From Ruminococcus sp. (lineage in GTDB: Bacteria; Bacillota; Clostridia; Oscillospirales; Ruminococcaceae): DNA of 55,541 nt. The DNA lies in the NCBI GenBank assembly GCA_017543335.1, contig JAFYGE010000057.1, forward strand, positions 1 through 55,541, in the 5' to 3' direction. Positions 12,898-30,614 of the stretch are shown piece after piece. Within the stretch, counting starts at the first letter, position 1. Each line of letters starts with the position of its first letter. Below the pieces are notes generated by a model. The model ran no database searches and was not told the origin of the DNA. It saw only the letters and a list, made by a program, of their open reading frames with translations. Both the position numbers and the translations under genes were made by a program.

Positions 12898-12957
12898 TCG
12901 CTGATGTTGTCCGGCATATATTTTAATAAGTATAAATGAAATCAGAGGTATAATGTA

Positions 12958-13614: not shown

Positions 13615-13635
13615 ATATATTTAGCAATATGATAT

Positions 13636-13672
13636 TAAAGCGGAGATCATTTACTTATAATGCTCCGCTTTA
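13636..13672 (+). terminator. Likely terminator after tmk
   Basis: A perfect 10-bp stem TAAAGCGGAG / CTCCGCTTTA (13636-13645 with 13663-13672) with a 17-nt loop. Only a modest T-rich tail follows, so termination may be partial. Confidence 0.6.
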
Positions 13673-13779
13673 TCGTTGCTTTTACAAAAACAATATTTTT
13701 TTAATATATGAAAAATATGCCGTCCTTTGTTTAAAGTCACGAAAAGTCCATGCAAATAATGTATGTTGGCTTTTATTGC

Positions 13780-13808
13780 TTGACTTTTCTATTGCCATAT
13801 GCTATAAT
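13780..13808 (+). promoter_or_regulatory. Internal promoter before the fdtA-like gene
   Basis: TTGACT (13780-13785), 17 nt, TATAAT (13803-13808) with TG one base upstream (extended -10). It shows that the open frame upstream of 13893 is non-coding leader and that the main part of the locus has its own start of transcription. Confidence 0.8.
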
Positions 13809-13892
13809 TACTTTGTAAAATTAGCCTTGTTGGTGGGAAATGCCTTGAAATACGGTCTTTTCAGCCACTTGGTTGGATCAGGAGAAAGAGAA

Positions 13893-14315: not shown

Positions 14316-14345
14316 TAAAGAACTTTTTACAGGGGGACTGTGACA

Positions 14346-15167: not shown

Positions 15168-15198
15168 TGGCTTTATATAAAGTAAAGGTGGTTAGAGA

Positions 15199-16170
15199 AT
15201 GGGTAATGACAGAGAGGTAGTTCTTGTTACGGCTATCGGAACTATGACTGCAACAACTGTAGTTGAAGAATTGAAAAAAATGGGTAAGTATTACATAATA
15301 GGCGGAGATATCTATGAAAAAAATATGGTCGCTACAACAAAGGATGTAGATGAATTCCATGTTTTTCCACCTGCTATCTATGAACTGGATAAGTATATAG
15401 AGTTCGTTCTGAAATTCTGCAAAGAGCACGAAGTTAAGTACTACTTCGCTGTTATCGATGAGGAGATAGTTAATCTTTCAAATAACAGAGAAAAATTTGA
15501 GGAAATAGGCGTGAAGCTCTGTATTCCTAACAAAAAGCTTGTCGAGACCTGCCATTTCAAGAATAAATTCTCTGAATGGCTGGAAAAAGAAATGCCTGAG
15601 ATCTCAATAAAGACTTTTTGCAGTGCTGATGAGATAAAAGATGAAGATTTCCCGATCTTTGTAAAGCCTGTAGAGGGCAGAGCAAGTACAGGATGCCGCA
15701 AGATAGATACAAGAGCTCAGCTTGATGAGTTCGTTGATACTGCGGAAATAGGTAAGACTATTATTGCTCAGCAGTTCGCAGAGGGAGAGATCGCTACAGT
15801 TGATATTATCAGCAATAACAAGACCGGTCAGGTAATACTGGCTCCTCGAAAGGAATTGCTCAGAAATTCAAACGGATGCGGTATAGCTGTAAAGACTTTC
15901 CATTCAGAAAAGCTTGAAGATATATGCCGCAGACTCGTACAGAAACTTGAACTTAACGGCATCGTTAATGCAGAATTTTTCTGCAAGGACGGCGAGTATA
16001 AGATCATAGAAATAAATCCTCGTTTTTCTGCCGGTACAGGATATTCATGTATGGCAGGTGCAAAAATGGTCTTGAATGCTATGGAGATCGCTGACGGTAA
16101 ATCGTGTACTGTCGGTGAACTGACACTTGGGAAACATTATGCTAAACGATATGAAACTTATGAAATGTGA
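15199..16170 (+). CDS. ATP-grasp carboxylate-amine ligase 1
   Basis: A 323-residue ATP-grasp enzyme of the carbamoyl-phosphate-synthase-like type. It has an N-terminal pre-ATP-grasp Rossmann part (VVLVTAIGTMTATTVVEELK), the ATP-binding strand FPIFVKPVEGRASTGCRKI, a central QQFAEGEIATVDII, and the C-terminal metal motif IIEINPRFSAGTGYS. Such enzymes activate a carboxylate as acyl phosphate and join it to an amine. The stop overlaps the region of the next gene's ribosome site (11 nt before DegT), so it is coupled to the aminotransferase. I infer that it may acylate the new 3-amino group or an amino acid substituent; the substrates are unknown. Confidence 0.8.
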   Translation: MGNDREVVLVTAIGTMTATTVVEELKKMGKYYIIGGDIYEKNMVATTKDVDEFHVFPPAIYELDKYIEFVLKFCKEHEVKYYFAVIDEEIVNLSNNREKFEEIGVKLCIPNKKLVETCHFKNKFSEWLEKEMPEISIKTFCSADEIKDEDFPIFVKPVEGRASTGCRKIDTRAQLDEFVDTAEIGKTIIAQQFAEGEIATVDIISNNKTGQVILAPRKELLRNSNGCGIAVKTFHSEKLEDICRRLVQKLELNGIVNAEFFCKDGEYKIIEINPRFSAGTGYSCMAGAKMVLNAMEIADGKSCTVGELTLGKHYAKRYETYEM

Positions 16171-16181
16171 GGAATAATTCA

Positions 16182-17276
16182 ATGGATGTTAAATTTACTG
16201 TGCTTCAGAGAGGCTTTGAACTGCATAAGGATGAGTACGAGGAAGCTGCTTTAAGAGCTCTTCGTTCAGGCTGGTACGTCCTCGGAAATGAGCTTGAAAG
16301 CTTTGAGAAGGAATTCTCTTCATATATCGGCATGAATTACGGTATAGGCGTAAATTCAGGTCAGGACGCTCTCATCCTTGCGGTCAGAGCACTTGGCATA
16401 GGAGCAGGGGATGAGGTGATAACTCAGTCCAATGCTTATATTGCATCAGTTTTGGGAATAACAGAAAATGGAGCAACACCGGTTTTTGTTGAGCCTGATA
16501 AGTATTTCGGTATGGATCCGGAAAAGCTTGAAGCTGCTATAACGCCTAAGACAAAGGCTATACTACCGGTGCATCTTTATGGACATATATGCGATATGAG
16601 CCGTATAAAGGCTATCGCTGACAAGCACGGTATACCTGTGATAGAGGACTGTGCACAGTGCCACGGTTCAAATCAGAACGGAAAGAAAGCCGGCTCTTTC
16701 AGCACTATCTCATGCTTTAGCTTCTATCCTACAAAGCCGCTCGGAGCATTTGGCGATGCAGGCATATGTCTTACAAATGACCCTGAGCTCAACGAGAAGC
16801 TCCGTATGCTTCGTTTCTACGGAAGCCGAAAGAAGTACGTCAGCGAGATCACAGGAATCAATACTCGTATGGACGAGATGCAGGCTGCACTCCTCAGCGT
16901 CGGACTTAAATATATCGACGAAGAAAAGAAGATACGTCAGCATATAGCTGAAAAGTACCTTAAAGGCATAACTAATCCGCTTATAAAGCTCCCTGAGACA
17001 AGAGAGGATACAGAGCACGTTTACCATATTTTCGGTATCCTTTGCGAAAAGAGAGACGAGCTTATAAGCTTCCTTGCTGATAAGGGAGTACAGGTAGGTA
17101 TCCACTATCCTATACCTCCTCACCTTTCACCATGTTATGATTACCTCGGTCTGAACAAGGGGGACTTCCCTGTTGCTGAGTATTATGCAGATCATGAGGT
17201 TAGTCTGCCTATATATGCAGGTATGCCTGATGAAGAGGTAGATGCTGTGATTGAGGCAATTAATTCTTTTGAGTAA
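16182..17276 (+). CDS. FdtB/QdtB-like sugar 3-aminotransferase (DegT/DnrJ/EryC1)
   Basis: A 364-residue PLP-dependent sugar aminotransferase. Signatures are RSGWYVLGNELESFEKEF, GVNSGQDALILAVRALGIG, the PLP-stacking EDCAQCHGS, the Schiff-base lysine in SFYPTKPLGAFGDAG, and GINTRMDEMQAALL. Together with the FdtA-like isomerase it should aminate C3 of a dTDP-3-keto-6-deoxyhexose using glutamate. The start is ATG 16182, 12 nt after the preceding stop, with GAGGA in front; an in-frame GTG at 16167 overlaps the previous gene and is less likely. No FdtC/QdtC N-acetyltransferase is found nearby, so acylation must be by another route. Confidence 0.9.
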   Translation: MDVKFTVLQRGFELHKDEYEEAALRALRSGWYVLGNELESFEKEFSSYIGMNYGIGVNSGQDALILAVRALGIGAGDEVITQSNAYIASVLGITENGATPVFVEPDKYFGMDPEKLEAAITPKTKAILPVHLYGHICDMSRIKAIADKHGIPVIEDCAQCHGSNQNGKKAGSFSTISCFSFYPTKPLGAFGDAGICLTNDPELNEKLRMLRFYGSRKKYVSEITGINTRMDEMQAALLSVGLKYIDEEKKIRQHIAEKYLKGITNPLIKLPETREDTEHVYHIFGILCEKRDELISFLADKGVQVGIHYPIPPHLSPCYDYLGLNKGDFPVAEYYADHEVSLPIYAGMPDEEVDAVIEAINSFE

Positions 17277-17312
17277 TATCAGCTGAGGTTTATTATATAA
17301 TGGGGTGTCGAC

Positions 17313-18518
17313 ATGAATAAAACAAAGTTAAAAGAAAAAATTAGAACACTGGTCCCTGATATACGCTTTGTAAGAAAAAGCATTGCCAAAATGAGGTATC
17401 GTTCTATCAGTAAACGCTTTATTGATGAGAATGAGATCAGAGCAGCTGAAGAAAATAGTGAACTGAAAAAAGATTTTGTAAAGAAATACACCGAGAAATG
17501 GCCTGATATATACAAAAGGACATTAAAGGAGTATGATAAGCTCTTAAATTGGACAGTTGATCCTCAGAAGCGTAAAGATTTAGAAAGACTTAAAACTGAT
17601 ATACATTTCTGTAAGTATGCTTACGGATTTGTTCCTTATGAATATGTCAGCTTAGAGCTCGAAAATAAGGACATGGATACAAGAAAGACTTATGTTTCAA
17701 ATCGTGACACTCATGTATATCAGTGCATGATAAATGACCTTACTGAAACAGCTGTAACTTCTGATAAGGTAAAGACATATGAAACATATAAAAAGTATTT
17801 TCATCGTGATGCCATAGAGGTAGTCTCTGAAAAGGACTATGATAAATTCAAGAAATTTATTTCTGCTCATCCGGTTTTTGTAAAAAAACCGGTATACGAG
17901 TGCGGCGGCAGAGGCATTGAGCGTGTTGATGTACGTGAAAAAGGCTCTGAACCGAAAAAAGTATTCGATGAAATGGTGGCTGCCGGAAAGCATATCTGTG
18001 AAGAGGTAGTCAAGCAAAGTGAGAAAATAGCTGTATTTAATTCATCAAGCGTCAATACAGTAAGAATAGTTACACTTACAACTAAAAATGGTGTAGAGCC
18101 GTTCTTTTCTGTAATGCGTTTCGGCAGAGGCGGAACTTTTGTTGATAACGCAAGCAGCGGCGGTGTTTTCGCTGGTGTGGATATAAATACAGGTACTGTA
18201 AATACAGACGCATATGACAAGGGCAATGATGTCTATGCTGCTCATCCTGACACCGGAGTTACTTTTAAAGGCTTCAAAATACCAAAATGGGATGAACTTG
18301 TTGAGACCTGCAAGGAAATGTCAGGTATGAATAAAAAGCTGAAGGCCTATACATGGGATATGGCATTGGCTGAATTGCCTGATGGGTCTGAAAAATGGGT
18401 CGTTATAGAGTGTAATGCAATGGGAGAATTCCTCATACAGATAGTTTCCAAAAAAGGCATTAAAGCTGATTTTGAGGCTAAGATGAGAAATATGGACCTT
18501 ATGGTCGATTTTAAATGA
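17313..18518 (+). CDS. Sugar-transfer-associated ATP-grasp protein
   Basis: A 401-residue protein of the ATP-grasp_ST type (PF14397-like) common in capsule and teichoic acid loci. After a helical N-terminus it has FVKKPVYECGGRGIERVDV, SSSVNTVRIVTLTTKNG (highly typical), MRFGRGGTFVDNASSGGVFA and the C-terminal VVIECNAMGEFL. The chemistry is thought to be ligation of an amino acid or other carboxylate to a glycan or precursor, but no member of this exact sort is known to me in detail. It is the second of three ATP-grasp enzymes in 4.7 kb. Confidence 0.8.
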   Translation: MNKTKLKEKIRTLVPDIRFVRKSIAKMRYRSISKRFIDENEIRAAEENSELKKDFVKKYTEKWPDIYKRTLKEYDKLLNWTVDPQKRKDLERLKTDIHFCKYAYGFVPYEYVSLELENKDMDTRKTYVSNRDTHVYQCMINDLTETAVTSDKVKTYETYKKYFHRDAIEVVSEKDYDKFKKFISAHPVFVKKPVYECGGRGIERVDVREKGSEPKKVFDEMVAAGKHICEEVVKQSEKIAVFNSSSVNTVRIVTLTTKNGVEPFFSVMRFGRGGTFVDNASSGGVFAGVDINTGTVNTDAYDKGNDVYAAHPDTGVTFKGFKIPKWDELVETCKEMSGMNKKLKAYTWDMALAELPDGSEKWVVIECNAMGEFLIQIVSKKGIKADFEAKMRNMDLMVDFK

Positions 18519-18576
18519 CCTGAGTATTGCGTTTACTTGGCGATCTGTATATTAAAAATCAATTTGGGAGAACATC

Positions 18577-19857
18577 ATGTACGAAGATTTAAAAGGTAAA
18601 AAACTTCTTATAGTTGGTTCATACAATGAGTCTGATATGGTCGAAGTTGCCCATGAAATGGGACTTTATGTTATAGTAGTGGACAACGTGCTTGACCGTA
18701 AGGTAGCTCATGCTAAAAATGTTGCAGACGAAGCTTGGGATATAAGCTATACAGACATTGAAGCTGTTGCTGCAAAGTGCAGAGAAGCCGGAGTTGACGG
18801 CGTTATGGCCGGATACAGCGAATACAGGATAATGGCTGCTGCACAGATTTCAAAAGCTATCGGCAAGCCTTTCTATGCAACAGAAGAACAGGTCGATTTC
18901 ACAAGAAATAAGAGACTTTTTCAGGAGGCTTGTGCTAAGTACGGAATAAAGACTCCGCACGGATACTGCACTAACGGTCTTATCAGCGAAGAGGCAAAGG
19001 ACAAGGTCGAGTATCCTGTTATCGTAAAGCCTGCTGACTGCAACGGACGTGTCGGTATTTCAGTTTGCCACGACCGCAAACAGCTCGATGAAGCTATCGA
19101 GCTTGCACTTGAAAAGTCAAGAACACATACCTATATGATAGAGGATTTCCTCGACGGTACCGAGTTTTCAGCCGTTTATACGATCAAAAACGGCGAAATG
19201 AGCCTTTCATGCCTCAATGCAAAGTATATAACCAAAGATCAGCGTAAGGAAAATTTCCTTTGCGACTGCTCTATAATACCTGCTGCATTCGTAGATGATT
19301 TCAAGGTACAGATAGATGCTAAGATAAAGGAATTCCTCAAAGGAATGAATGCGATCAACGGAGTTGCTAATTTTCAGGGAATGTATACCAATCACGGTAT
19401 ATACCTCTTTGAAATGGGATTCCGTGTAAACGGAAATAATGATTACAGGGCAATTGAGCGTGAAAACGGGATAAGCTTCCTTAAAATGCTCATTTCGTAT
19501 TCACTTTGCGGCGATATGCGTGATGACCTTAAAAAGGATAACCCTAAGTTCAGCAAGTACTACTGCACACTGCCTTTCTATGGCCATGCAGGTACTATAG
19601 CTAAGCTTGACATAGATAAGGTCCTGAAAATGGAAGATGTATACCTTTCTGCAATGAAAGCTGAAATAGGCAATACTATGACAGAAAGCGGTACAAGCGG
19701 TCAGAAGCTGTTTTCATTTATGGTGGTTGCAGAGAATATGACCCAGCTCAAAGAGCGTATAAAGAAAATTCAGGAAAGCATTACAGTTGAAGACGAAAAC
19801 GGAAACAATCTTGTATTCGATTTCTTTGATCCTTCAGTGCTCGAAGAAAGTATATGA
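18577..19857 (+). CDS. ATP-grasp carboxylate-amine ligase 3
   Basis: A 426-residue ATP-grasp protein related to the carbamoyl-phosphate-synthase large subunit and PurK/biotin carboxylase group. It starts with a Rossmann part (KKLLIVGSYNESDMVEVAHE), then YPVIVKPADCNGRVGISVCH, YMIEDFLDGTEFSAVYTI, and the metal-binding C-terminus LFEMGFRVNGNNDYRAIE. A C-terminal extension covers about residues 330-426. Presumed role: ATP-dependent amide bond formation on the glycan or its decorating acid. It is distinct in sequence from the ligase at 15199, so the locus may form more than one amide. Confidence 0.8.
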   Translation: MYEDLKGKKLLIVGSYNESDMVEVAHEMGLYVIVVDNVLDRKVAHAKNVADEAWDISYTDIEAVAAKCREAGVDGVMAGYSEYRIMAAAQISKAIGKPFYATEEQVDFTRNKRLFQEACAKYGIKTPHGYCTNGLISEEAKDKVEYPVIVKPADCNGRVGISVCHDRKQLDEAIELALEKSRTHTYMIEDFLDGTEFSAVYTIKNGEMSLSCLNAKYITKDQRKENFLCDCSIIPAAFVDDFKVQIDAKIKEFLKGMNAINGVANFQGMYTNHGIYLFEMGFRVNGNNDYRAIERENGISFLKMLISYSLCGDMRDDLKKDNPKFSKYYCTLPFYGHAGTIAKLDIDKVLKMEDVYLSAMKAEIGNTMTESGTSGQKLFSFMVVAENMTQLKERIKKIQESITVEDENGNNLVFDFFDPSVLEESI

Positions 19858-19881: not shown

Positions 19882-20874
19882 ATGAGCGGAAAAATACTAA
19901 CGGTATCAGTTGCTGCGTATAATGTTGAGCAGTATATAAAACAGAATCTTGATTCAATGACAGTGCCTGAGCTTGTCGATAAGCTTGAGATATTCGTTGT
20001 TGATGACGGCGGAAAAGACGGTACTTTAGAAATTGCTAAGGAGTATGAAGCAAAATATCCGGGTACAGTATATGCTGTCCACAAGGAAAATGGCGGATAT
20101 GGCTCGACTGTAAACTATAGCATCGCCCATGCTACCGGAAAGTATTTTAAACTTCTTGACGGTGATGACTGGTTCAATACAGCTAACCTTATAAAGTTTG
20201 TCGAACTGCTCGAAAACGGCAATGAGGACCTTATTATCACGGACTATTTCAAAGGTCCTGAAGAGGGAAGCATGAAGACTGTCAATACAGGTTCAGTGAA
20301 TCATAATGTAACCAAAACCGAAAATATACACGATATTATCGGACATTGGTCTATTGCATATAAGACTGAGATACTGAAAGCTTCAGGTCTTGAACTCCCT
20401 GAGCATCAGTTCTATACCGATAAGATATTCTCCACTATACCAATGGCACTTGTAAAAAGCGTCAAAGCTTATGCACTTCCGGTCTACTCCTACAGAATAG
20501 GCAGAGACGGTCAGAGCGTAAGCCGTGAATCAAGAATAAAAAATGTTAAGAATTATCTTAATATCTGTAATATAATATGCGATTACTGCGGCAAGATAAA
20601 TGCGTCACCTGAGAAAAACAAGTATGTTTTCCGCAGAGCTGTAAGCGACTACAGACTTGGTATTAAAACTGCACTTCTTTGTCCTAACAAGAAGGAAAAT
20701 CTTGCTATGATAAAAGAGTATGAGAACAGAAATAAGCAAAAGAATAATAAGGTATTTACAGCGGCAGGTAAAACTACAAGCAAAACAGGTAAATTGATCT
20801 GCTTTATGAGAAAAACAAAGTACCTCGGCTATTGGGGACTTGCACTCATACCTAAATCAAAACTCGATTTCTGA
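19882..20874 (+). CDS. GT2 family glycosyltransferase
   Basis: A 330-residue GT-A fold glycosyltransferase. Its nucleotide-binding start is VSVAAYNVEQYIKQNLDSM, with FVVDDGGKDGTLEIA, NGGYGSTVNYSIAHATGKYF and the DxD-type metal motif LLDGDDWF. The C-terminus (about 230-330) is basic and lacks membrane helices. It is probably a cytoplasmic, membrane-associated enzyme adding one sugar to the lipid-linked unit. It resembles the GT2 at 45623-46648 in motif layout. Only this GT and the initiating transferase are obvious in the locus, which would imply a short repeat unit or glycosyltransferases supplied elsewhere. Confidence 0.85.
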   Translation: MSGKILTVSVAAYNVEQYIKQNLDSMTVPELVDKLEIFVVDDGGKDGTLEIAKEYEAKYPGTVYAVHKENGGYGSTVNYSIAHATGKYFKLLDGDDWFNTANLIKFVELLENGNEDLIITDYFKGPEEGSMKTVNTGSVNHNVTKTENIHDIIGHWSIAYKTEILKASGLELPEHQFYTDKIFSTIPMALVKSVKAYALPVYSYRIGRDGQSVSRESRIKNVKNYLNICNIICDYCGKINASPEKNKYVFRRAVSDYRLGIKTALLCPNKKENLAMIKEYENRNKQKNNKVFTAAGKTTSKTGKLICFMRKTKYLGYWGLALIPKSKLDF

Positions 20875-20931: not shown

Positions 20932-22287
20932 ATGAATAAAACTGAGCAATTCCTCGCCTGTATAGATGAACTTGCAGGAAAACCAATACCTGAAAAAGTT
21001 ATGAAAAGGGCTAAAGAGTCACTTCTGGATTATCTGGCAGTATCAGCAGCAGGTGCTGTATATTTGAGCGATAAGCTGGAAAAATATATGGAGTTCGCAT
21101 CGCCTGAAAGCGGTGATTTCATGGCAGTTGGTACCGGAAATAAGCTTGTTCTTAAAGAAGCTGTTTTTCTCAATGGACTTTGCGGTCACGCTCTGGACTT
21201 TGACGACGGTACCAATGCCGGTATAATCCATCTCGGTTCACCGATATTCTCGTTATTGCTCCCACTTGCGGAAAAATATGATATTAAAGTGGACGACCTT
21301 CTGAGGGCAGCTGTTATCGGATATGAGACATCATTTACTATGGCTATTTCGATACAGCCCGGACATAAAGCTATGGGATATCATGCTACAGGTACCTGCG
21401 GTATCCTTGGAGCAGTTATCGCAGCTTCATATATGCTCGGATTTACCGAAGAAGAACGAAGAAATGCGATGGCTTCAGCTTGTGTAGCTGCATCTGGTAT
21501 GCTTCTTGTACTTGATGACGGTTCTGAACTGAAGCCTTATAATGTTGCTAAAACAGCACTTCTTGCTCTTACAGCATTGCAGCTCGGAAAGTCCGGATTC
21601 AAGGGACATCCCGATCCGCTGTACAGCAGCAGAGGTTATCTCAAAATGATGACCGGAAGAAATGACATAGAATTGAAACCATTACAATATAACGGCACAT
21701 ATGCGATAGAAAAAACCTACACTAAGCCTTATGCAGCTTGCAGATATTGTCATCCGGCTATCGAAGCTGCGATAAGTATGAGGAATGAGTACGGAATAAA
21801 GCCGGAAGATGTTGAGAAAATAAATGTAAGTACATACTCACTGGCTGTTAAGGGCCACGATCATATTGAAATACCTGTATCAGCCTCGGCTAAAATGAGT
21901 ATACCATACGGCGTTGCTGTCGGAGTCATTTACGGTAAAGCCGGACTTAATGAGTATAAGGACGAAACTCTTGCTTTGTCTGAAGTAAAAGAGCTTACAA
22001 GAAAGGTATCTGTATCTGAAGATCAGGGGATGAGCGACAGATTCCCCGGAACTCAGGAAGCCTGCGTTCAGATAAATGCCGGCGGAAAACAGTACTCCAA
22101 AACAGTTGATTTCCCTAAGGGCGAACCTGAAAATCCTATGGGAACTCAGGAATTCAGCGAAAGATACACCGACCTTATGTTATATGGATGCAGAAGCCGT
22201 GAGCAGGCTGACCGCATCTATGATTCGGTAATGAATAAAGATATCTCTGTATCAGAGCTTACAGGTATGATAGGAAAGGAAATATGA
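20932..22287 (+). CDS. MmgE/PrpD family dehydratase/decarboxylase-like protein
   Basis: A 451-residue MmgE/PrpD protein, the family of 2-methylcitrate dehydratase and cis-aconitate decarboxylase. The substrate-site signatures are GHALDFDDGTNAG and GYHATGTCGILGAVIAAS, with PYAACRYCHPAIEAA later. Length is normal. GGAGG lies 6 nt before the ATG at 20932; an earlier in-frame start at 20914 precedes that site. It opens the small-acid cassette and overlaps the reductase gene by 4 nt. Such enzymes add or remove water on tricarboxylates or decarboxylate them; propionate-cycle partners (methylcitrate synthase, PrpB) are absent, so a biosynthetic role in glycan decoration is inferred. Confidence 0.85.
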   Translation: MNKTEQFLACIDELAGKPIPEKVMKRAKESLLDYLAVSAAGAVYLSDKLEKYMEFASPESGDFMAVGTGNKLVLKEAVFLNGLCGHALDFDDGTNAGIIHLGSPIFSLLLPLAEKYDIKVDDLLRAAVIGYETSFTMAISIQPGHKAMGYHATGTCGILGAVIAASYMLGFTEEERRNAMASACVAASGMLLVLDDGSELKPYNVAKTALLALTALQLGKSGFKGHPDPLYSSRGYLKMMTGRNDIELKPLQYNGTYAIEKTYTKPYAACRYCHPAIEAAISMRNEYGIKPEDVEKINVSTYSLAVKGHDHIEIPVSASAKMSIPYGVAVGVIYGKAGLNEYKDETLALSEVKELTRKVSVSEDQGMSDRFPGTQEACVQINAGGKQYSKTVDFPKGEPENPMGTQEFSERYTDLMLYGCRSREQADRIYDSVMNKDISVSELTGMIGKEI

Positions 22288-23255
22288 TTATGAGTAAAGT
22301 TAAACTTGTTCTTGGCACTATGACCTTTGGCGAATCTGTTTTTGGTAAGGATGCAGAGGATATAGTAAAAAAATATATTGAATACGGCTATGACGAGCTT
22401 GATACTGCCTATGTCTATAATGACGGACAGTGCGAGAAGATACTCGGTGATATACTTGGTACTATTGGTAAGGATAAGGTCAAGGTCTCAACTAAGGTCA
22501 ATCCGAGAATAACAGGAAAACTCGACGGACAAGCTGCATACGATCAGCTCAGTGAGTCGCTGGAGCGTATGGGACTTGAAAGCGTTGATACTTTTTACCT
22601 GCATTTTCCTGACCCGAATACACCTGTTGACTCTGTACTTGAAGCCTGCGGTGAGCTTCACAAGCAGGGCAAGTTCAAGGAGCTTGGACTGAGCAATTTC
22701 CCTGCATGGCTGGTGGCTGATGTTTATCATCGCTGCAAGAGCAATGGCTGGGTGCTCCCGACAGTCTATGAGGGAATTTATAATCCGCTTACAAGAAGAG
22801 CTGAGGCAGAGCTTAACGATGCACTTGATTATTTCGGTATGCGTTTTTATGCCTATAATCCTATGGCTGGCGGACTTCTTACAGGTAGATATAAGAATTT
22901 CGAGGACGCTCCTACAGACGGACGTTTTACTCACAGACCGAATTATCAGAAACGCTACTGGAAGGAGTCATGCTTCAAGGCTGTAGAGCTCCTTTCTGAG
23001 GCTTGTGAAGCTGAGGGTATCACAATTATCAATGCTGTTTACCGCTGGCTTGCTGAGCATTCGATGCTCAACGGCGACAGGGGCGACGCTATCATAATCG
23101 GAGCTTCAAAAATAGGTCACCTTATTCAGAATATGGATTCTGTCAATGAAGGTCCGCTTTCAGATAAACTACTTGCTGCGTTTGATAAAGCGTGGGAGAT
23201 CTGCAAGAGCGACAGCTCTGAATATTTCAGATTTTACGGTTCTGCTATGAATTGA
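22284..23255 (+). CDS. AKR7-type aldo/keto reductase
   Basis: A 323-residue (beta/alpha)8 NADPH-dependent reductase. Sequence along its length is close to the AKR7 group (aflatoxin aldehyde / succinic semialdehyde reductases): ELDTAYVYNDGQCEKILG (catalytic Asp and Tyr), STKVNP (Lys), DTFYLHFPDPNTPVDSVL (His), KELGLSNFPAWLVADV, SNGWVLPTVYEGIYNPLTRR and YAYNPMAGGLLTGRYK. AKR7 enzymes reduce short-chain semialdehydes to hydroxy acids. Next to a 2-oxoacid decarboxylase, reduction of the resulting aldehyde is the natural reading. ATG 22284 overlaps the prior stop; ATG 22290 is also possible. Confidence 0.85.
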   Translation: MIMSKVKLVLGTMTFGESVFGKDAEDIVKKYIEYGYDELDTAYVYNDGQCEKILGDILGTIGKDKVKVSTKVNPRITGKLDGQAAYDQLSESLERMGLESVDTFYLHFPDPNTPVDSVLEACGELHKQGKFKELGLSNFPAWLVADVYHRCKSNGWVLPTVYEGIYNPLTRRAEAELNDALDYFGMRFYAYNPMAGGLLTGRYKNFEDAPTDGRFTHRPNYQKRYWKESCFKAVELLSEACEAEGITIINAVYRWLAEHSMLNGDRGDAIIIGASKIGHLIQNMDSVNEGPLSDKLLAAFDKAWEICKSDSSEYFRFYGSAMN

Positions 23256-23265
23256 GGAGGATGTA

Positions 23266-24393
23266 ATGTTAGATCAGAATATTGTATGTGAAGAACTTAA
23301 AAAGAACGGTGTCACCTTTTTTACAGGTGTTCCGGACTCTTATCTCAATGGATTCTGCAATCATATATTGAAAAATTACCCTGAGCGTAATATAATCGCT
23401 GCTAACGAGGGAAATGCTGTGGGAATTGCAGCAGGTCACTATATAGCATCAAAGGAGATACCTCTGGTTTATATGCAGAACTCCGGACTTGGAAATACCG
23501 TTAATCCGCTGGTATCACTTGCTGATGAACACGTATACTCCATACCGATGATACTTCTTATCGGCTGGAGAGGTCAGCCCGGTACAGGCGACTGGCCTCA
23601 GCATGAACTTCAGGGAGAAATAACAACTAAGCTCCTTGATGTTATGAATATCCCATATACTATTCTTGAAGATGATAACAGCAAGATAGGTGAAGTTATC
23701 GAAAAGGCAGTTTCTTATGCAAAAGAAACAAGACGTTCATATGCACTTATAGCTCCGAAGGGAGTAATGGCTGGCGAAAAAGCTAATAATAAGGACGATC
23801 TCTATCCGCTTTCAAGAGAGGAAGCGATCGAAACAGTCCTTGATAATATGCCGGAGGATACTGTATATTCAGCTACTACAGGCAGAGCTACAAGAGAGCT
23901 CTTCTTCCTCAGAGAAAGAAGAAATGAAAGCCGCAAAAACGACTTCCTCAACGTTGGCTCAATGGGACACGCTTCATCTGTTGCACTTGGTATAGCTCTT
24001 GAAAAGAAGAACAGACAGGTGGTTTGCTTTGACGGTGACTCAGCTGCTATTCTTCATCTTGGTGCACTTACAATGGTAAGCAAGCTTGATTGTCCGAACT
24101 TCCTTCATATAGTTCTCAATAACGGTGCTCATGAATCTGTTGGCGGACAGCCTTCCGCAGGCTATCTTGTCGACTTTACAAAGATCGCAGAGAGCTGCGG
24201 ATATGAGACTGTCGGAAAGGCTGCTGAAAATAAAGAGGAGCTTATCAGTGCTGTAAAACAGCTCAGTTCACGCAAAAAAGCCGGCTTTATCGAAGTAAAG
24301 ATACATAAGGGATTAAGCGGAAAACTGCCGCCTCTTGATTTCTCACACAGAGAGGCGATAGATGATTTAATATCAGAATTGAATAAAGATTGA
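23266..24393 (+). CDS. Phosphonopyruvate decarboxylase-like ThDP enzyme
   Basis: A 375-residue thiamine-diphosphate enzyme similar in length and motifs to phosphonopyruvate decarboxylase (Ppd/AepY) and sulfopyruvate decarboxylase. It shows FFTGVPDSYLNGFCNHIL, the catalytic-Glu motif IAANEGNAVGIAAGHY, VYMQNSGLGNTVNPL, IGWRGQPGTGDWPQHELQG, and the ThDP/Mg motif CFDGDSAAILHLG ending in VLNN. It should decarboxylate a 3-substituted pyruvate to a substituted acetaldehyde. No PEP mutase or aminoethylphosphonate gene is present, so phosphonopyruvate is not the assured substrate. AGGAGG precedes the ATG. Confidence 0.85.
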   Translation: MLDQNIVCEELKKNGVTFFTGVPDSYLNGFCNHILKNYPERNIIAANEGNAVGIAAGHYIASKEIPLVYMQNSGLGNTVNPLVSLADEHVYSIPMILLIGWRGQPGTGDWPQHELQGEITTKLLDVMNIPYTILEDDNSKIGEVIEKAVSYAKETRRSYALIAPKGVMAGEKANNKDDLYPLSREEAIETVLDNMPEDTVYSATTGRATRELFFLRERRNESRKNDFLNVGSMGHASSVALGIALEKKNRQVVCFDGDSAAILHLGALTMVSKLDCPNFLHIVLNNGAHESVGGQPSAGYLVDFTKIAESCGYETVGKAAENKEELISAVKQLSSRKKAGFIEVKIHKGLSGKLPPLDFSHREAIDDLISELNKD

Positions 24394-24411
24394 TAGAAAG
24401 GAATTAAGATC

Positions 24412-25314
24412 ATGAACAGTATGGAAAAAACAAGAGAATTTCTCAGATCTATAGGTCTTCCCGGCGGAGATGCTTACGATCTTCCTACATCTGAAAAAAG
24501 ATTTGCTGACGGAGGTCAGTATAGATTTGAAGTTCCCGGAATACAGGGACCTGCTGTAATGGAAGCACTTCTCGAAGAAATAGATAAGTACGGTCTCTAT
24601 CTCCACCGTGTTACTCAGACTAAGGGCATAATGATGCTCACTGATAACGAGATAAGCCGTATGGTCGAACTTGCTAAGACAGCTCAGACTGACCTTATCC
24701 TCGCTATCGGACCAAGAGCAACTACAGATACATCAGCTTCTGTAAATACTCCTGAGGGCGTTCGTATGGGCTACAGACTCAGAGGTCAGGAGCAGGTAGT
24801 AAGAGCTATTGAGGATGTTAAGAGAGCTGCTTCACTTGGCTGTACAGGATTCCTCGTATATGACGAGGGCTGTCTCTGGGTACTCAATGAAGCAAGAAAA
24901 GCCGGTGAGATACCAGCAAACTGCCATTTCAAGCTCTCTGCACACTCCGGTCACGGAAATCCTTGCTCAGCAAAGCTCCTTGAGAGCATAGGTGCAGACT
25001 CACTCAATCCGGTACGTGATATACAGCTTCAGATGCTCGCTGCAATGAGACAGGCTATCGATATTCCTATAGACATCCATACAGAGAATCCAAAGTCAAC
25101 AGGCGGATTTATCCGTCATTACGAGGTTCCTGAGATGATAAGAGTTGCTGCACCTCTCTATCTCAAGACAGGCGGTTCAGTAGCTCAGACTCATAGTTGG
25201 GACAGCACTGTTTCAGATGCAAAGGCAAGAGCTAAACAGGTAACTCTCGTAAAGAGAATGATAGATTCATATTATCCAGACGCAATTCAGTCACCGAAAG
25301 GGGAACTTAAATAA
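24412..25314 (+). CDS. TIM-barrel protein, peptidase U32-like (function unknown)
   Basis: A 300-residue protein with alternating strand/helix pattern of a TIM barrel: QTDLILAIGPRATTDTSAS, CTGFLVYDEGCLWVLNEARK, CHFKLSAHSGHGNPCSAKLL, IGADSLNPVRDIQLQML, IPIDIHTENPKSTGG, APLYLKTGG. It weakly recalls the U32 peptidase / prephenate-type barrel families, but lacks the usual U32 cysteine-rich signature, so I do not assign an activity. Conserved-looking His, Glu and Asp at strand ends suggest a metal- or acid-binding active site. The stop and the next start overlap (TAATG), so it is translationally coupled to the C-C bond lyase and is probably a step of the same pathway. Confidence 0.65.
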   Translation: MNSMEKTREFLRSIGLPGGDAYDLPTSEKRFADGGQYRFEVPGIQGPAVMEALLEEIDKYGLYLHRVTQTKGIMMLTDNEISRMVELAKTAQTDLILAIGPRATTDTSASVNTPEGVRMGYRLRGQEQVVRAIEDVKRAASLGCTGFLVYDEGCLWVLNEARKAGEIPANCHFKLSAHSGHGNPCSAKLLESIGADSLNPVRDIQLQMLAAMRQAIDIPIDIHTENPKSTGGFIRHYEVPEMIRVAAPLYLKTGGSVAQTHSWDSTVSDAKARAKQVTLVKRMIDSYYPDAIQSPKGELK

Positions 25315-26462
25315 TGAGACATCATCTTTATAATCCGGATTTCAAATTTGTGGTAGAACCTGAAAATTTTGATAAATATACAGATAGGGAACTCCTCCAG
25401 TACTGCCTTGGTGCTACTATGTATATGCCCGGAACAAAAGATTTTGCTCCGAAAATACTGTCCGGTGCAATGCCGGGACTTACAACCATAGTTCTTTGCT
25501 TTGAGGATGCCTGCCCTGAGGACAAAGTGCCGGAGGCTGAGGAAAATGTCCACAGACTTCTTGACACTGTAACAAATGCAGTTGACAGCGGTCAGCTCGC
25601 ACCGGAAAAAGTGCCGCTCATCTTTGTAAGAATACGAAATCTTGAGCAGTTCAAGCATTTTGGCGAAGCTCTTACAAAGAATCAGGTGCGTTCACTTGCA
25701 GGTATAAACTTCCCTAAGTTCAACGCAGAGAACGGTTATGAATATTACGCTTACCTTCGTGACCTCAATGACAGATTCGGCGAGATACTCTACGGTATGC
25801 CGATAATCGAGGACCCGGAAGTTGCTTACAAAGAGTGCAGACTCACTCAGCTTGTCGGCATAAAGAAAATACTCGACAAGTACCATGACCTCGTACTTCA
25901 GGTGCGTGTGGGCGGTACAGATTTCTCATCTGTATTCGGCGTAAGAAGAGGCGTTGACTATTCTATATATGACATTATGACAGTTCGTGAGTGTCTTTCA
26001 GACATCATGAATGTGTGCGGAAGAAATAATGATTATGTAATTTCCGGCCCTGTATGGGAGTACTTCCGTGCTCCTAAGGAGCTTATGTTTGAAGAGCTTC
26101 CAAAGCACAGCCTTGAAGATTACCTTATGAAGCGTATTCCTATCGTAAATAATGAAATAGACGGACTTCTCAGAGAAGTTATACTCGATAAGGCAAACGG
26201 CTTTATCGGAAGAACAGTCATCCACCCGACTCATGTTAAGTTTGTAAATGCATTAATGGCTGTAACTAAGGAAGAATACGACGATGCCTGCATGATACTC
26301 GGTCATAAGGAAGGCGGAGTGCTCAAGGGCACAGGTGCAAATAAGATGAACGAGGTCAAGCCGCATACAAACTGGGCAATGAAGATATGTATGAGAGCAA
26401 GAGCATTCGGCGTTATAGAGAATGAACATTCATACATCAAGCTTTTTGCCGTTAATGAGTAA
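25314..26462 (+). CDS. CitE/HpcH-HpaI-like C-C bond lyase
   Basis: A 382-residue TIM-barrel lyase of the HpcH/HpaI aldolase - citrate lyase beta superfamily. It has the opening RHHLYNPDF, LGATMYMPGTKDFAP, the metal/substrate motifs VLCFEDACPEDKV and FVRIRN, GMPIIEDPEVA, RVGGTDFSSVFGVRRG and GRTVIHPTHVKFVNALM. This 380-residue type (PF15617-like) is best known from tellurite-resistance-associated biosynthetic operons. It would make or break a carbon-carbon bond between an oxo-acid and an acyl unit, for example citramalate- or malate-like products. No Ter genes are nearby. It lies between the TIM-barrel gene and the fumarase-like pair. Confidence 0.8.
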   Translation: MRHHLYNPDFKFVVEPENFDKYTDRELLQYCLGATMYMPGTKDFAPKILSGAMPGLTTIVLCFEDACPEDKVPEAEENVHRLLDTVTNAVDSGQLAPEKVPLIFVRIRNLEQFKHFGEALTKNQVRSLAGINFPKFNAENGYEYYAYLRDLNDRFGEILYGMPIIEDPEVAYKECRLTQLVGIKKILDKYHDLVLQVRVGGTDFSSVFGVRRGVDYSIYDIMTVRECLSDIMNVCGRNNDYVISGPVWEYFRAPKELMFEELPKHSLEDYLMKRIPIVNNEIDGLLREVILDKANGFIGRTVIHPTHVKFVNALMAVTKEEYDDACMILGHKEGGVLKGTGANKMNEVKPHTNWAMKICMRARAFGVIENEHSYIKLFAVNE

Positions 26463-26480
26463 TATATAGTTGGTGATGAT

Positions 26481-26990
26481 ATGAGCATTGATATAAAAAC
26501 CCCTATTTCAAAAGAGGATATAGCCGGACTTAAAGTCGGTGATACTATATCCATATCAGGCTATATTTTTTGCGGAAGAGATGCAGTCCTTCCGAAGATA
26601 GTCGCACTTGCCAAAGAGGGAAAACTCGCTGAACATGGTATTGACCTTGAAGGAAGTGTTATATTCCATACTGCTGTAAGTCCGGCTGGTGTCGGACCTA
26701 CATCCAGTAATAAACTGGAGATAGAAAGCAGTATCGCACCGCTTTCTGAGTACGGTGTAAGACTCCACCTCGGAAAAGGTGAGATACACAAGGAAACTAT
26801 CGCTGCACTTGATAAATTCGGTTCTGTGTATGCGGTCATCCCACCGGTAACCGCTCTGCTGGAAGCTAAGACAACAGAAAAGAAACTCGTTGCCTTTCCG
26901 GAACTTGGTATGGAAGCTTTCTATGCACTTAAAGTTGAAGGTTATCCGGCTATTATAGCCGCTGCACACGGAAGGAGTATTTATGAGTGA
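26481..26990 (+). CDS. Class I fumarase/tartrate dehydratase beta-subunit-like protein
   Basis: A 169-residue protein of the FumA C-terminal (beta subunit) family of oxygen-sensitive hydro-lyases. Motifs are GDTISISGYIFCGRDAVLPK, VIFHTAVSPAGVGPTSSNKL (equivalent to the usual GPTTS.RM), GVRLHLGKGEIHKE and ELGMEAFYALKVEGYPAI. The methionine-arginine pair normally after GPTTS is replaced by KL, which may reflect another substrate. Its end overlaps the alpha-subunit gene by 8 nt, so the two are made together. The order beta then alpha is reversed relative to the common alpha-beta order. Confidence 0.8.
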   Translation: MSIDIKTPISKEDIAGLKVGDTISISGYIFCGRDAVLPKIVALAKEGKLAEHGIDLEGSVIFHTAVSPAGVGPTSSNKLEIESSIAPLSEYGVRLHLGKGEIHKETIAALDKFGSVYAVIPPVTALLEAKTTEKKLVAFPELGMEAFYALKVEGYPAIIAAAHGRSIYE

Positions 26991-27843
26991 TATAAATTAC
27001 GATCAGATCATCGAAAAAGTAAAAAATACTCTCGTAACAGCCGGCTCAACATTCCGTCCGGATAAGAAAGAAGCCTATAAGAAGGCTATTGAGTCAGAGA
27101 GTAATGAAAAAGCAAAATGGGTGCTTCAGACTATACTCGATAACGCAGAGGCTGCTGAAGAAAACCGCAGTCCGCTTTGTGACGACTCAGGTATTCCGCA
27201 TATGGTACTGGAGGTTGGTCCGGACGCTGTTGTTACAGGAAGAACTCTCGATGCTATACGTGAAGGCATCGCTCAGGGACTCAGAGCACTTCCCGGACGT
27301 CCTATGGGTATCATGGGAAATGACTCTCAGCGTATCGATCAGTCAGGCGGACTTGACCCTGATTCAGCCGGAGTTAAACCGGCTCCTATACTTATAAGAA
27401 ATACTGAGGATAACGTTCTCAGACTTCATATCATGATGTTTGGAGGAGGTCCTGCGATACGTGCAAAGACTTATCGTGTGTTCCATAAGCATAACACTCA
27501 GACTGTTATAGATGAGATAGTAAACTGGGCAACAGAATCTACTGCTCAGCTTGGATGTACTCCGTGTACTCTCGGAGTTGGTGTTGGCAGATCACATTTT
27601 GAAGCCGCTTCTATGATGCTTCAGGCTCTCGTTGACGGCAACCATAATGTCCAGAGCGAAATGGAGCAGGAGATAACAAGAAGAGTAAACGAAGCAAATA
27701 TAGGTCCTCTCGGACTTAAAGGCGATACCACTGTTATTTCAACATTTATGAAGGTCGGACCTCAGAGAGCAAGCGGCGTAAGAGTTGTATGTATGAGACC
27801 ATGCTGCTGCTTTGAACCGAGAATTGCTACAGTTGAACTGTAA
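26983..27843 (+). CDS. Class I fumarase/tartrate dehydratase alpha-subunit-like protein
   Basis: A 286-residue [4Fe-4S] hydro-lyase alpha subunit. Expected cluster cysteines are in PLCDDSG, LGCTPCTLGVGVG and the C-terminal RVVCMRPCCCFEPR, which is unusually cysteine-rich. Other typical parts are AGVKPAPILIRN and NIGPLGLKGDTTVISTFMKV. With the beta protein it should form an (alpha-beta)2 dehydratase acting on malate, tartrate, citramalate/mesaconate or a relative. GGAGTA within the beta gene serves as ribosome site. It is the last of the seven-gene small-acid cassette. Oxygen-labile clusters fit an anaerobe. Confidence 0.85.
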   Translation: MSDINYDQIIEKVKNTLVTAGSTFRPDKKEAYKKAIESESNEKAKWVLQTILDNAEAAEENRSPLCDDSGIPHMVLEVGPDAVVTGRTLDAIREGIAQGLRALPGRPMGIMGNDSQRIDQSGGLDPDSAGVKPAPILIRNTEDNVLRLHIMMFGGGPAIRAKTYRVFHKHNTQTVIDEIVNWATESTAQLGCTPCTLGVGVGRSHFEAASMMLQALVDGNHNVQSEMEQEITRRVNEANIGPLGLKGDTTVISTFMKVGPQRASGVRVVCMRPCCCFEPRIATVEL

Positions 27844-27858: not shown

Positions 27859-29079
27859 GTGGTAATATGTAAAAATAAATTCAGATTACACATAAATGAA
27901 GAATTCATTTACATTCTGGCATTCGGACTGTATTTTTTTGCTGAGTACTACCGCTCGACCATGTTCTTCCATACTTTTCCTACATTTTTTTTAGGTCCTA
28001 TGAAAGCTATGGCTACGGGATTGCTTATACTGAAATGTGTTATACACGATCAGTATAAGATGAAAAGATTCCTTACCATAGCATCGTCAATATTACTGTC
28101 GCTGCTTATAACGTTTAAATCGGAATATGCCCATGTGTTTTCAACGATGCTGTTTATAATATCGGCACAGGGAGTAAATTTCGATAATATGCTGAAATGT
28201 ACGCTGTACATAGGCTTGACTTTAACAGTTATATCAGTAGCAGCTTCACAAGTCGGAATAATACCTGATCTTGTTTATTACAGAGATAACGGAAGTATAC
28301 GTCATTCATTCGGTACGATATATCCGACGGACTTTGCTGCTCATATTTTCTATCTTGCACTTACGTTCTTCTATCTGCAAAGAGGAAAATTATGCTTCAA
28401 GCACATATGTATTATACTGTTTCTCATAGTGTTCCTTGATGTGTTATGCGATACAAGACTTACTGAACTGCAATTGACCTTTTTATTGTTAGCTGCATTA
28501 TTATACAAAAGAGCATATGTAAAGGAAAAGATAAGCTTGTTCTACAAAATAGCTATTCCTGCGGCAATGCCTGTATGTGCCTTTATTTCTATAATGATAT
28601 GTAAACTGTATGATAAAAAAGACCCGACTTGGAAGATGCTGAACTCGATCGTTTCAAGAAGACTTGAATACGGTAATAACTCGCTGAACGATAATAAGGT
28701 CAATCTCTTCGGAAGATTTATCGAGCAGAACGGAAGCGGAGGAACTGTTGATAATATGTATCAGAGAAATCTCGAATATACATTTATCGATATCTCTTAT
28801 ATGAGAGTTCTTCTTATGTACGGACTTGTAATGTTCGTGATAGTTCTTACAGTCTATCCGGCACTTTGTGTCATAAGAATGAAAAAAGGCGACCTGCTTC
28901 TTCCAATGTGTTTCTTTGTAATAGCTGTTTCAAGTATGATAGATCATCATCTGATAGATTTTGCTTATAACACGTTTATACTTTGTCTGTTTATGAATAA
29001 ATATAATCCTGTTGCTGATAGGATGATAGAAAAAGCAGTTCCGAAAAAAAGAAGATTCAGGATACGTTTAAAAGCGTAA
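27859..29079 (+). CDS. Wzy-like O-antigen/capsule polymerase
   Basis: A 406-residue polytopic membrane protein with about ten or eleven hydrophobic segments (for example FIYILAFGLYFFAEYY, IASSILLSLLITF and VLTVYPALCVI) and a large soluble loop around residues 255-320, the usual Wzy layout. Sequence conservation in this family is low, so assignment rests on topology and location just before the flippase. It would polymerise lipid-linked repeat units on the outer membrane face. The start is GTG 27859 with CCGGAGG in front. A hairpin of the interspersed repeat follows its stop. Confidence 0.7.
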   Translation: MVICKNKFRLHINEEFIYILAFGLYFFAEYYRSTMFFHTFPTFFLGPMKAMATGLLILKCVIHDQYKMKRFLTIASSILLSLLITFKSEYAHVFSTMLFIISAQGVNFDNMLKCTLYIGLTLTVISVAASQVGIIPDLVYYRDNGSIRHSFGTIYPTDFAAHIFYLALTFFYLQRGKLCFKHICIILFLIVFLDVLCDTRLTELQLTFLLLAALLYKRAYVKEKISLFYKIAIPAAMPVCAFISIMICKLYDKKDPTWKMLNSIVSRRLEYGNNSLNDNKVNLFGRFIEQNGSGGTVDNMYQRNLEYTFIDISYMRVLLMYGLVMFVIVLTVYPALCVIRMKKGDLLLPMCFFVIAVSSMIDHHLIDFAYNTFILCLFMNKYNPVADRMIEKAVPKKRRFRIRLKA

Positions 29080-29159: not shown

Positions 29160-30614
29160 ATGGCGAAACAAAAGTCAGTAAAATTTAATTTTATAATGGA
29201 GTCGATATTAACTATGTCGACTTTCATTTTTCCTCTTATAACTTTTCCTTATGTAACGAGGATACTTGGTGCAAATGGTACCGGAAAAGTTGCGTTTGCA
29301 ACTTCGATAATATCCTATTTTAATATCATTGCTCAGCTTGGTATACCAAAGTATGGAATCAGAGCCTGTGCTAAGGTGAGGGATGACAAAGAGAAGCTTA
29401 CACGAACAGCTCACGAGCTTCTTATCATCAATATAGTTATGAGCCTTATTTCGTATCTGCTTCTCGCATCAGCAATAATACTGATACCGAAATTAAGACA
29501 CGAGAAATTACTGTATATTATAATCAGCTTCACGATATTATTCAATACAATAGGAATGGAGTGGCTGTATAAAGCTCTTGAGCAGTATGCTTATATCACT
29601 GTAAGATCGATAATCTTCAAGTTCATAGCGTTGCTTTCTATGTTTATGTTTGTAAGACATGAAGGCGATTATCAGATATACGGAGCAGTATCCATACTTG
29701 CAGCATCAGCTTCAAATATATTCAACTTTATCCATGTTCATAAGTATATAAGCATGAAGCCTGTGGGGAATTATAATTATCGTCAGCACCTTAAAGCAGT
29801 AGCAGTATTTTTCGCAATGGCTTGTGCGACGACTATATATACTCACCTTGATACTGTAATGCTCGGCTTTATGAAAACAGACGATGATGTAGGTTACTAC
29901 AATGCGGCTGTAAAGATAAAAGTCATACTGGTAAGCATTGTTACTTCGCTTGGAACAGTTCTTCTTCCGAGAGTATCTTATTATATACAGCAGGGAAAGA
30001 CAGAGGAGTTCAGAAAGATAACAAGAAAAGCTCTGAATTTTGTTATGCTCATTGCAACTCCGCTCACTGTATACTTTATCATGTTTGCAAAAGCAGGAAT
30101 ACTCTTCCTTTCGGGTAAGAATTTTTACGATTCTATAGTGCCTATGCAGCTTATAATGCCGACGCTTATACTGATAGGTCTTTCAAATATCACCGGAATA
30201 CAGGTGCTTGTACCGCTTGGAAAGGAAAAAGTAGTTCTATACTCCGAGATCGCCGGAGCTGTAGTTGATCTGGCACTTAATGCGATACTGATACCGTTTA
30301 TGGCATCATCCGGTGCAGCAATAGGCACTCTTGTAGCTGAATTTGTAGTCCTTGCTTATCAGTATAACGCACTTAAAGATCAGCTTTCGGAAGATCTGAA
30401 AAAAATACACTATTTCAAGATATTAGCGGCGATAGCAGCCGGCTCGCTTGGTTCAGTTTGGGTACTCTGGCTGGGACTCGGCAGCTTCCTTACACTTCTT
30501 ATATCTTCAGTTATTTTCTTCGGATTATACGGAGTGACACTTCTCATATTAAAAGAAAAGCTTGTTAATGAGATCTTTGAACAGGTAATTGGAAAGATCA
30601 AAAAACGTTTTTAA
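29160..30614 (+). CDS. Wzx-like polysaccharide flippase
   Basis: A 484-residue membrane protein of the MOP/PST exporter superfamily with 12-14 predicted helices. Typical are the N-terminal STFIFPLITFPYVTRILGANGTG and FATSIISYFNIIAQLGIPKYGIRA, and the middle YTHLDTVMLGFMKTDDDVGYYNAAVKI (two charged positions facing the lumen). Length is usual for RfbX/Wzx. It moves undecaprenyl-linked repeat units across the membrane. GAGAG precedes the ATG. The glf gene follows with its ribosome site overlapping this stop. Confidence 0.9.
   Translation: MAKQKSVKFNFIMESILTMSTFIFPLITFPYVTRILGANGTGKVAFATSIISYFNIIAQLGIPKYGIRACAKVRDDKEKLTRTAHELLIINIVMSLISYLLLASAIILIPKLRHEKLLYIIISFTILFNTIGMEWLYKALEQYAYITVRSIIFKFIALLSMFMFVRHEGDYQIYGAVSILAASASNIFNFIHVHKYISMKPVGNYNYRQHLKAVAVFFAMACATTIYTHLDTVMLGFMKTDDDVGYYNAAVKIKVILVSIVTSLGTVLLPRVSYYIQQGKTEEFRKITRKALNFVMLIATPLTVYFIMFAKAGILFLSGKNFYDSIVPMQLIMPTLILIGLSNITGIQVLVPLGKEKVVLYSEIAGAVVDLALNAILIPFMASSGAAIGTLVAEFVVLAYQYNALKDQLSEDLKKIHYFKILAAIAAGSLGSVWVLWLGLGSFLTLLISSVIFFGLYGVTLLILKEKLVNEIFEQVIGKIKKRF

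Follow-up and report, generated by a model that had tools for sequence, protein, structure and literature searches.

A seven-gene cassette in a Ruminococcus polysaccharide locus

The window analysed here is a 55,541-nucleotide (nt) stretch, positions 1 to 55,541 of contig JAFYGE010000057.1, of a Ruminococcus sp. (assembly GCA_017543335.1). It contains a cassette of seven tightly packed open reading frames (ORFs), all on the + strand at 20932..27843, the positions at which a first-pass annotation, made by a model from the letters alone, had placed them. The order of the genes is as follows.

20932..22287, + strand: MmgE/PrpD protein (PF03972, PF19305), class 0 among the cassette PrpDs by identity
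22284..23255, + strand: AKR7-type aldo/keto reductase (PF00248; nearest solved relatives are aflatoxin aldehyde reductases)
23266..24393, + strand: phosphonopyruvate decarboxylase (Ppd)-like thiamine pyrophosphate (TPP) enzyme (TIGR03297)
24412..25314, + strand: TIM-barrel protein without a Pfam family (structure model and fold matches)
25314..26462, + strand: PF15617 (C-C_Bond_Lyase) lyase of the CitE/CLYBL group, form-A type (PF15617, 381.1 bits)
26481..26990, + strand: class I fumarase-like beta subunit, FumB (PF05683, Fumerase_C)
26983..27843, + strand: class I fumarase-like alpha subunit, FumA (PF05681, Fumerase)

The gene set and the families first assigned to it were confirmed by the ORFs, by Pfam and NCBIfam matches and by structure matches. 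Intergenic distances along the cassette are -4, 10, 18, -1, 18 and -8 nt, with the overlaps of PrpD and reductase (-4), TIM barrel and lyase (-1) and beta and alpha subunits (-8) as originally described; an alternative start of the PrpD frame is possible at 20914. A GT2 glycosyltransferase gene ends 57 nt before the cassette and a presumed polymerase gene starts 15 nt after it.

The cassette recurs as an accessory unit

A pattern-based scan with the TIM-barrel protein of the window over 84,980 species genomes found 255 relatives, the best 80 of which were analysed; selected by TIM patterns, these loci over-represent close relatives. Those truncated by a contig end were left out where relevant (20 of the 80 for the seven-gene count, 40 for the flank count), and marker counts, obtained with hidden Markov models built on the loci themselves, are lower bounds. 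The first-pass annotation had asked whether the seven genes co-occur in other genomes, and they do: the identical seven-gene order was present in 34 of the 60 loci with room for all seven genes. The seven-gene run is therefore a recurring unit and not a product of chance.

By organism name, 70 of the 80 loci belong to Bacillota, two each to Lentisphaerota, Fibrobacterota and Bacteroidota and one to Spirochaetota, with no phylum given for three; many of the carrier genomes are metagenome-assembled, and binning errors are possible for these labels. Among 398 genomes drawn evenly from the phylum, 32 had a TIM relative of any kind, and one of at least 70% identity was found only in the genome of the window and in G095, which carries all seven genes in order (L119). 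A survey of the genus found the cassette TIM protein in three of 24 genomes, including that of the window, and the other two (L176, L177) again carry all seven genes. Because so few genomes in either survey carry a close TIM relative or the cassette, the unit is accessory and patchy in distribution.

Two forms of the cassette exchange a set of enzymes

The loci fall into two forms that differ in their terminal enzymes. Form A, to which the window belongs, has the reductase and the decarboxylase (39 of the 60 loci with room), and in form B (17 of 60) both are replaced by a D-2-hydroxyacid dehydrogenase, the one protein scanned being a PF02826 member. Ppd-like enzymes and 2-hydroxyacid dehydrogenases both act on 2-oxo-acids. 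Neither terminal set was present in three loci (L027, L064, L066) and both were present in one (L028), where each terminal module comes with its own PrpD class around a single lyase, TIM-barrel protein and hydratase. Over all 80 loci, 53 were assigned to form A (Ppd only), 19 to form B and one to both, leaving seven unassigned.

The two forms sort strictly for some cassette proteins and loosely for others. The nearest relative was of the same form for all lyases (67/67) and all PrpDs (63/63), against 64 of 72 TIM proteins, 55 of 65 FumA and 55 of 66 FumB. Likewise, the maximum identity between an A and a B protein was 64.7% for the lyase, compared with 97.3% for TIM and 94.7% for FumA. On quick trees built without a shuffled control, and disregarding unassigned rows, the fewest changes between A and B were one for the lyase (75 rows), nine for TIM (81 rows) and 11 for FumA (71 rows). 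The pattern is well seen in two loci both named Lachnospiraceae, L042 (form A) and L014 (form B), which share 94.7% identity in FumA, 87.4% in FumB and 88.7% in TIM, against 58.2% in the lyase and 39.5% in PrpD. The records name L042 as NE2001 and L014 as Lachnospiraceae FE2018; a further named carrier, Acetatifactor muris DSM 23669 (L082), has form A. PrpD classes follow the forms as well: classes 0 (that of the window), 2 and 3 occur in form A, sometimes together (classes 0 and 2 in four loci), and class 1 in form B, with one form-B single (L053). Since form sorting is strict for lyase and PrpD and looser for TIM, FumA and FumB, the unit is, judged by these identities, modular, with a shared core of TIM-barrel protein and hydratase and an exchangeable set made up of lyase, PrpD and terminal enzymes.

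Our tentative reading is that the cassette is a modular operon, spread by horizontal transfer, for a putative small hydroxy acid that often becomes ligated to a surface glycan.

Enzyme families of the cassette and their bearing on its product

The solved structure nearest to PrpD is the IDS-epimerase 2hp3 (E 5.6e-30), followed by B. subtilis IRG1. The protein matches PF03972 and PF19305 at family level and scores 34.2 bits against the 2-methylcitrate dehydratase equivalog TIGR02330, far under the cut-off of 458. Four aflatoxin aldehyde reductase sequences, which we take to belong to the AKR7 family, head the solved relatives of the reductase (E 1.8e-85 for 2bp1 to 1.7e-83; next 7.3e-30). AKR7 enzymes reduce succinic semialdehyde.

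The TPP enzyme clears the NCBIfam cut-off for the phosphonopyruvate decarboxylase equivalog (TIGR03297; 424.8 versus 312.5 bits). It might accordingly be a true Ppd on a route to 2-hydroxyethylphosphonate, with phosphonopyruvate supplied from elsewhere or by the TIM-barrel protein, and a phosphoenolpyruvate (PEP) mutase is indeed encoded in the same genome, on the separate contig C23. The known Ppd pathways to 2-aminoethyl- and 2-hydroxyethylphosphonate share with the cassette this TPP family and a reductase. Unlike them, the cassette has no PEP mutase among its seven proteins by Pfam scan, and it adds a lyase, PrpD, a TIM barrel and a hydratase, of which a phosphonate route leaves lyase, PrpD and hydratase without a role. 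Nor does the TIM protein have profile similarity to the PEP mutase of its own genome. The C23 region (L138, 7424-12474) is a phosphonate-type locus in its own right: its PEP mutase, which has a longer N-terminal part, is closely accompanied by a Ppd of its own, which shares about 42% identity with that of the cassette, and an aminotransferase and a nucleotidyltransferase were recognised there by eye. A PEP mutase like that of C23 lies near the cassette in only two of the 80 loci, a third match being short and partial. A phosphonate product is therefore improbable.

In profile comparison the best match of the lyase was human CLYBL (5vxc, E 3.3e-29), with malyl-CoA lyases and CitE also matching; a single-sequence search found no solved relative. 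Residues R106, E166, D203 and H304-P305, presumably catalytic or coenzyme A (CoA)-binding positions, are invariant in 44 alignment rows. Profile and residues place the lyase among the CitE/CLYBL acyl-CoA lyases, in agreement with its original description as CitE-like. Compared with the citramalyl-CoA and malyl-CoA lyases (CLYBL, Mcl, CitE), with which it has these features in common, it forms a divergent subfamily of about 380 amino acids.

The same lyase family occurs in the Ter-associated module (PF15617, PRTase_2/TRSP), which resembles the cassette also in having ATP-grasp genes nearby. A link to this module would make the cassette product a signalling or protective stress metabolite and neither a glycan part nor a nutrient. 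One high-scoring PF15617 relative (L174, the only one scanned) adjoins TerD and PRTase_2/TRSP, and one ATP-grasp protein of the window exceeds the ATPgrasp_Ter cut-off. However, the cassette lyase has different partners, a scan of 17 window proteins having found no TerD, PRTase_2 or TRSP, and the 12 high-scoring PF15617 rows from outside cassettes are 36-47% identical to the window lyase versus 55-88% for cassette rows. We consider a Ter-associated metabolite highly improbable, and return to a hydroxy acid as the putative product.

The fumarase-like pair scores over the Pfam cut-offs (Fumerase 175.4 bits, Fumerase_C 84.1 bits). In the alpha subunit C66 and C192 are invariant and C274 nearly so. 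Eight cassette rows read CDDSG or CDDTG and GGGPAIR or GGGPEIR where fumarase has CQDTG and GGGSENM; CQDTG and GGGSEN are found in the alpha subunits of five other TIM loci, and CQDTG in 7xky. The beta subunit of the cassette also differs from the betas of those five loci. Because CDDSG and GGGPAIR replace CQDTG and GGGSEN, the substrate of the pair is probably not fumarate. FumA is the sole PF05681 match in its own genome (assembly 85.9% complete); the possibility that the pair is the housekeeping fumarase was given little weight, since the motifs depart from fumarase.

The TIM-barrel protein is the most conserved member of the cassette, 82-89% identical to 30 aligned relatives, and its invariant residues in 41 alignment rows include E40, D151, K174, D203, D221 and K252. 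It matched no Pfam family at E 0.01, U32 models included. Its structure model is confident (mean predicted local distance difference test score, pLDDT, 91) and many TIM barrels match it about equally well, so that the initial TIM-barrel call holds. Homologues at 52-56% identity lie in loci with varying sets of class I fumarase, Ldh_2, creatininase, CoA transferase, a PrpR_N sigma-54 activator and tripartite ATP-independent periplasmic (TRAP) transporter genes, with malic enzyme alongside in L121 and L125; the class I fumarases among them keep the usual motifs. These loci suggest that the TIM family acts on carboxylic acids beside a fumarase-type step.

Some further observations concern this family of about 300 amino acids, which has no Pfam match and occurs in highly varied loci. 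Some of its members are labelled U32 peptidases, including two of four plasmid relatives. On an Enterobacter chuandaensis plasmid (L115, 8907-20511) a 35% identical relative lies with a kinase-like protein, a 2-hydroxyacid dehydrogenase, an aminotransferase and two haem-oxygenase-like proteins, an arrangement that resembles a small-molecule cluster; a natural-product reading of the cassette drawn from it was dropped, as the remaining genes differ from those of the cassette. The TIM gene also has long ORFs on its opposite strand, which form one family across 63 loci; they are taken for a shadow of the high conservation of TIM, not for genes.

Genomic surroundings of the cassette

In the window the cassette lies within a probable Wzx/Wzy-type locus, of which a Pfam scan found the initiating transferase (PF02397), a glycosyltransferase (PF00535) and the flippase (PF01943). 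Upstream of the cassette are an FdtA-like protein, the initiating sugar transferase, three ATP-grasp proteins and a DegT aminotransferase; the flippase and a UDP-galactopyranose mutase lie downstream. The neighbours of most interest are these.

15199..16170, + strand: ATP-grasp protein with PylC-like N-terminus and ATPgrasp_Ter match (PF02655, PF15632, PF21360)
17313..18518, + strand: sugar-transfer-associated ATP-grasp protein (PF14397, 159.5 bits)
18577..19857, + strand: ATP-grasp protein, candidate acid-amine ligase (PF07478, PF02655), relatives of which adjoin cassettes
19882..20874, + strand: GT2 glycosyltransferase (PF00535), the single gene between the candidate ligase and the cassette
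27859..29079, + strand: presumed Wzy polymerase, by position alone (no Pfam family)
29160..30614, + strand: Wzx-type flippase (PF01943, 115.2 bits)

ATP-grasp genes adjoin the cassette in other genomes too. Of 53 form-A loci, 24 have such a gene somewhere in the stretch and 12 have one no more than 60 nt from a cassette gene; of 19 form-B loci, 18 have one and 15 have one at that distance. Inside the cassette spans of these 19 form-B loci there are 15 ATP-grasp genes. The corresponding figures for Wzx are three of 53 in form A (22 have one) and six of 19 in form B (14 have one). Among the families searched, ATP-grasp was the commonest within 60 nt, a limit that omits most permease pairs, which stand somewhat farther from PrpD (69 nt in L012).

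In one locus, L072, the run reads reductase, decarboxylase, lyase, TIM, FumB, FumA, carrier, MBOAT, porphyrin-type protein, AMP-binding ligase and PrpD. The phosphopantetheine-type carrier (PP-binding-like) scores 19.9 bits, under the cut-off of 20.8. Only this locus was seen to join the cassette to the three kinds of protein known from Dlt-type D-alanylation (adenylation enzyme, carrier and MBOAT), and by analogy the arrangement reads like a Dlt-type acid transfer, in which, unlike in Dlt, the acid would come from the cassette and would not be D-alanine. The porphyrin-type protein of L072 (within 12440-18939) is a fused NAD-binding/porphobilinogen-deaminase protein that stands amid the carrier-like protein, the MBOAT and the AMP-binding enzyme.

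Both the ATP-grasp adjacency and the L072 arrangement are what one would expect of a cassette that makes a carboxylic acid for attachment, and they favour the original proposal that an acid decorates the glycan. The glycan setting itself is only partial. Among 40 loci with at least 9 kb on each side, the 24 strict seven-gene loci had at least three polysaccharide markers in 13 cases, a DctM-type permease in eight and both in two; LysR was present in six. Form-B loci with such flanks all had polysaccharide markers (11/11) and no permease (0/11). The question raised at first pass, whether the cassette always sits with wzx/wzy and ATP-grasp genes, thus has a negative answer, the more so as in the same-genus genome G410 the cassette stands beside the housekeeping genes recG, ymdB and purA.

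A DctM-type permease (PF06808 in the one scanned) lies upstream of PrpD in 14 of the 80 loci (L012, L042 and L067 among them), together with a small partner without a Pfam match and often with LysR upstream as well, and all 14 carry PrpD class 0. On the TIM tree, presence of the permease takes at least 13 changes, short-flank loci being counted as lacking it. Such loci may point to fermentation or assimilation of a carboxylic acid taken up from outside, a role in which glycan neighbours would be incidental, both kinds of accessory operon gathering in the same islands. The company of the 52-56% TIM relatives (Ldh_2, class I fumarase of usual motif, malic enzyme, CoA transferase, creatininase, TRAP) would fit this explanation, as would the setting of G410. 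Against it stand the 11 form-B loci with 9 kb on both sides, all of them set in glycan loci and lacking the permease, and the ATP-grasp genes within the cassette spans of form B; import itself is not certain, as a search of the 80 loci with a single query found no DctP-like binding protein. We judge an import pathway somewhat unlikely overall and still prefer a hydroxy-acid operon that often serves the glycan.

Several results nevertheless weigh against that preference. Among the 24 form-A loci with room and PrpD class 0, 12 have the permease without an adjacent ATP-grasp gene, five have ATP-grasp within 60 nt, seven have neither and none has both; the corresponding loci with PrpD classes 2 and 3 have no permease (0/12) and ATP-grasp within 60 nt in five of 12. 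In G410, glycan-synthesis families were absent from the eight of ten neighbouring ORFs scanned, six of which have Pfam families. The loci of the distant TIM relatives look catabolic in gene content. No CoA ligase was found among the seven cassette proteins by Pfam scan. Finally, three form-A cassettes (L025, L039, L052) have no PF15617 lyase at the locus, and PF15617 had no match anywhere in their genomes, which are of unstated completeness; the lyase may thus not always be needed. In loci with ATP-grasp or MBOAT genes the acid is probably joined to a surface polymer; in the permease-type loci another use of it is as likely.

A putative route to a surface acid

From the gene set, its conservation, the module exchange and the neighbours, all of which are shown by the sequences, we infer an order and direction of steps, a product and its attachment. 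The common part, TIM-barrel protein and fumarase-like iron-sulphur hydratase, together with the form-specific lyase and PrpD, would yield an unusual 2-oxo-acid. In form A its decarboxylation by the TPP enzyme would leave an acid-bearing aldehyde, which the AKR7-type reductase would convert to an omega-hydroxy acid; in form B the D-2-hydroxyacid dehydrogenase would directly reduce the 2-oxo-acid. At many polysaccharide loci a neighbouring ATP-grasp ligase would then probably join the acid to a sugar amine, and in L072 the acid would pass via adenylation enzyme, carrier protein and MBOAT.

The first part of this route could resemble the methylcitrate cycle (PrpC, PrpD, an aconitase-type hydratase and PrpB). 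The PrpD proteins are homologous, and the roles could match: acyl-CoA carbon-carbon joining, dehydration by PrpD, iron-sulphur hydration and a TIM-barrel lyase that releases a 2-oxo-acid. The enzymes differ, in that the cassette lyase is of the CitE/CLYBL type and not a citrate synthase, the hydratase is fumarase-type, and the cassette adds decarboxylase and reductase or 2-hydroxyacid dehydrogenase; no citrate-synthase-type PrpC, aconitase or PrpB homologue was found among the Pfam families of the seven proteins. It also counts against the parallel that no likeness of the TIM protein to PrpB is detectable by sequence, and that the genomes of L025, L039 and L052 lack a PF15617 match.

By this analogy the cassette would perform a methylcitrate-cycle-like chain conversion with mostly unrelated enzymes, yielding a glycan substituent, and the TIM-barrel protein would be a lyase of a family not yet described, which we regard as unlikely. 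The CitE/CLYBL-type lyase would join an acyl-CoA, R-CH2-CO-CoA, to a 2-oxo-acid; PrpD would dehydrate the product and the fumarase-like pair rehydrate it so that the hydroxyl changes position; and the TIM-barrel protein would cleave off the 2-oxo-acid R-CO-COOH, which form A would trim and reduce, and form B only reduce, to give the substituent. Lyase, PrpD and terminal enzymes must on this scheme recognise R and so would travel together, whereas hydratase and TIM would see the constant half and so be shared. The parallel would thereby account for the association of lyase and PrpD with the terminal enzymes, which hydratase and TIM do not share. If true, it would describe a combinatorial system that diversifies surface acids.

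Systems that produce non-sugar acids for glycans are already known. The first-pass annotation knew of no described pathway with this gene set, and we found no description of it in the titles and abstract openings of the open-licence PubMed Central papers that the searches listed; as far as can be seen from these, the enzyme combination, the interchangeable modules and a TIM family without a Pfam model are new. That enzyme family, covered by no Pfam model here, is labelled as peptidase in some public records. Non-sugar acids on bacterial surface glycans shape phage and host recognition, and the biosynthetic genes for many of them are not known. If our tentative reading of the cassette as a hydroxy-acid operon is true, it would provide a portable, mix-and-match route to surface acids in rumen and gut bacteria, and the module exchange predicts that swapping lyase, PrpD and terminal enzymes would change the acid while TIM-barrel protein and hydratase stay.

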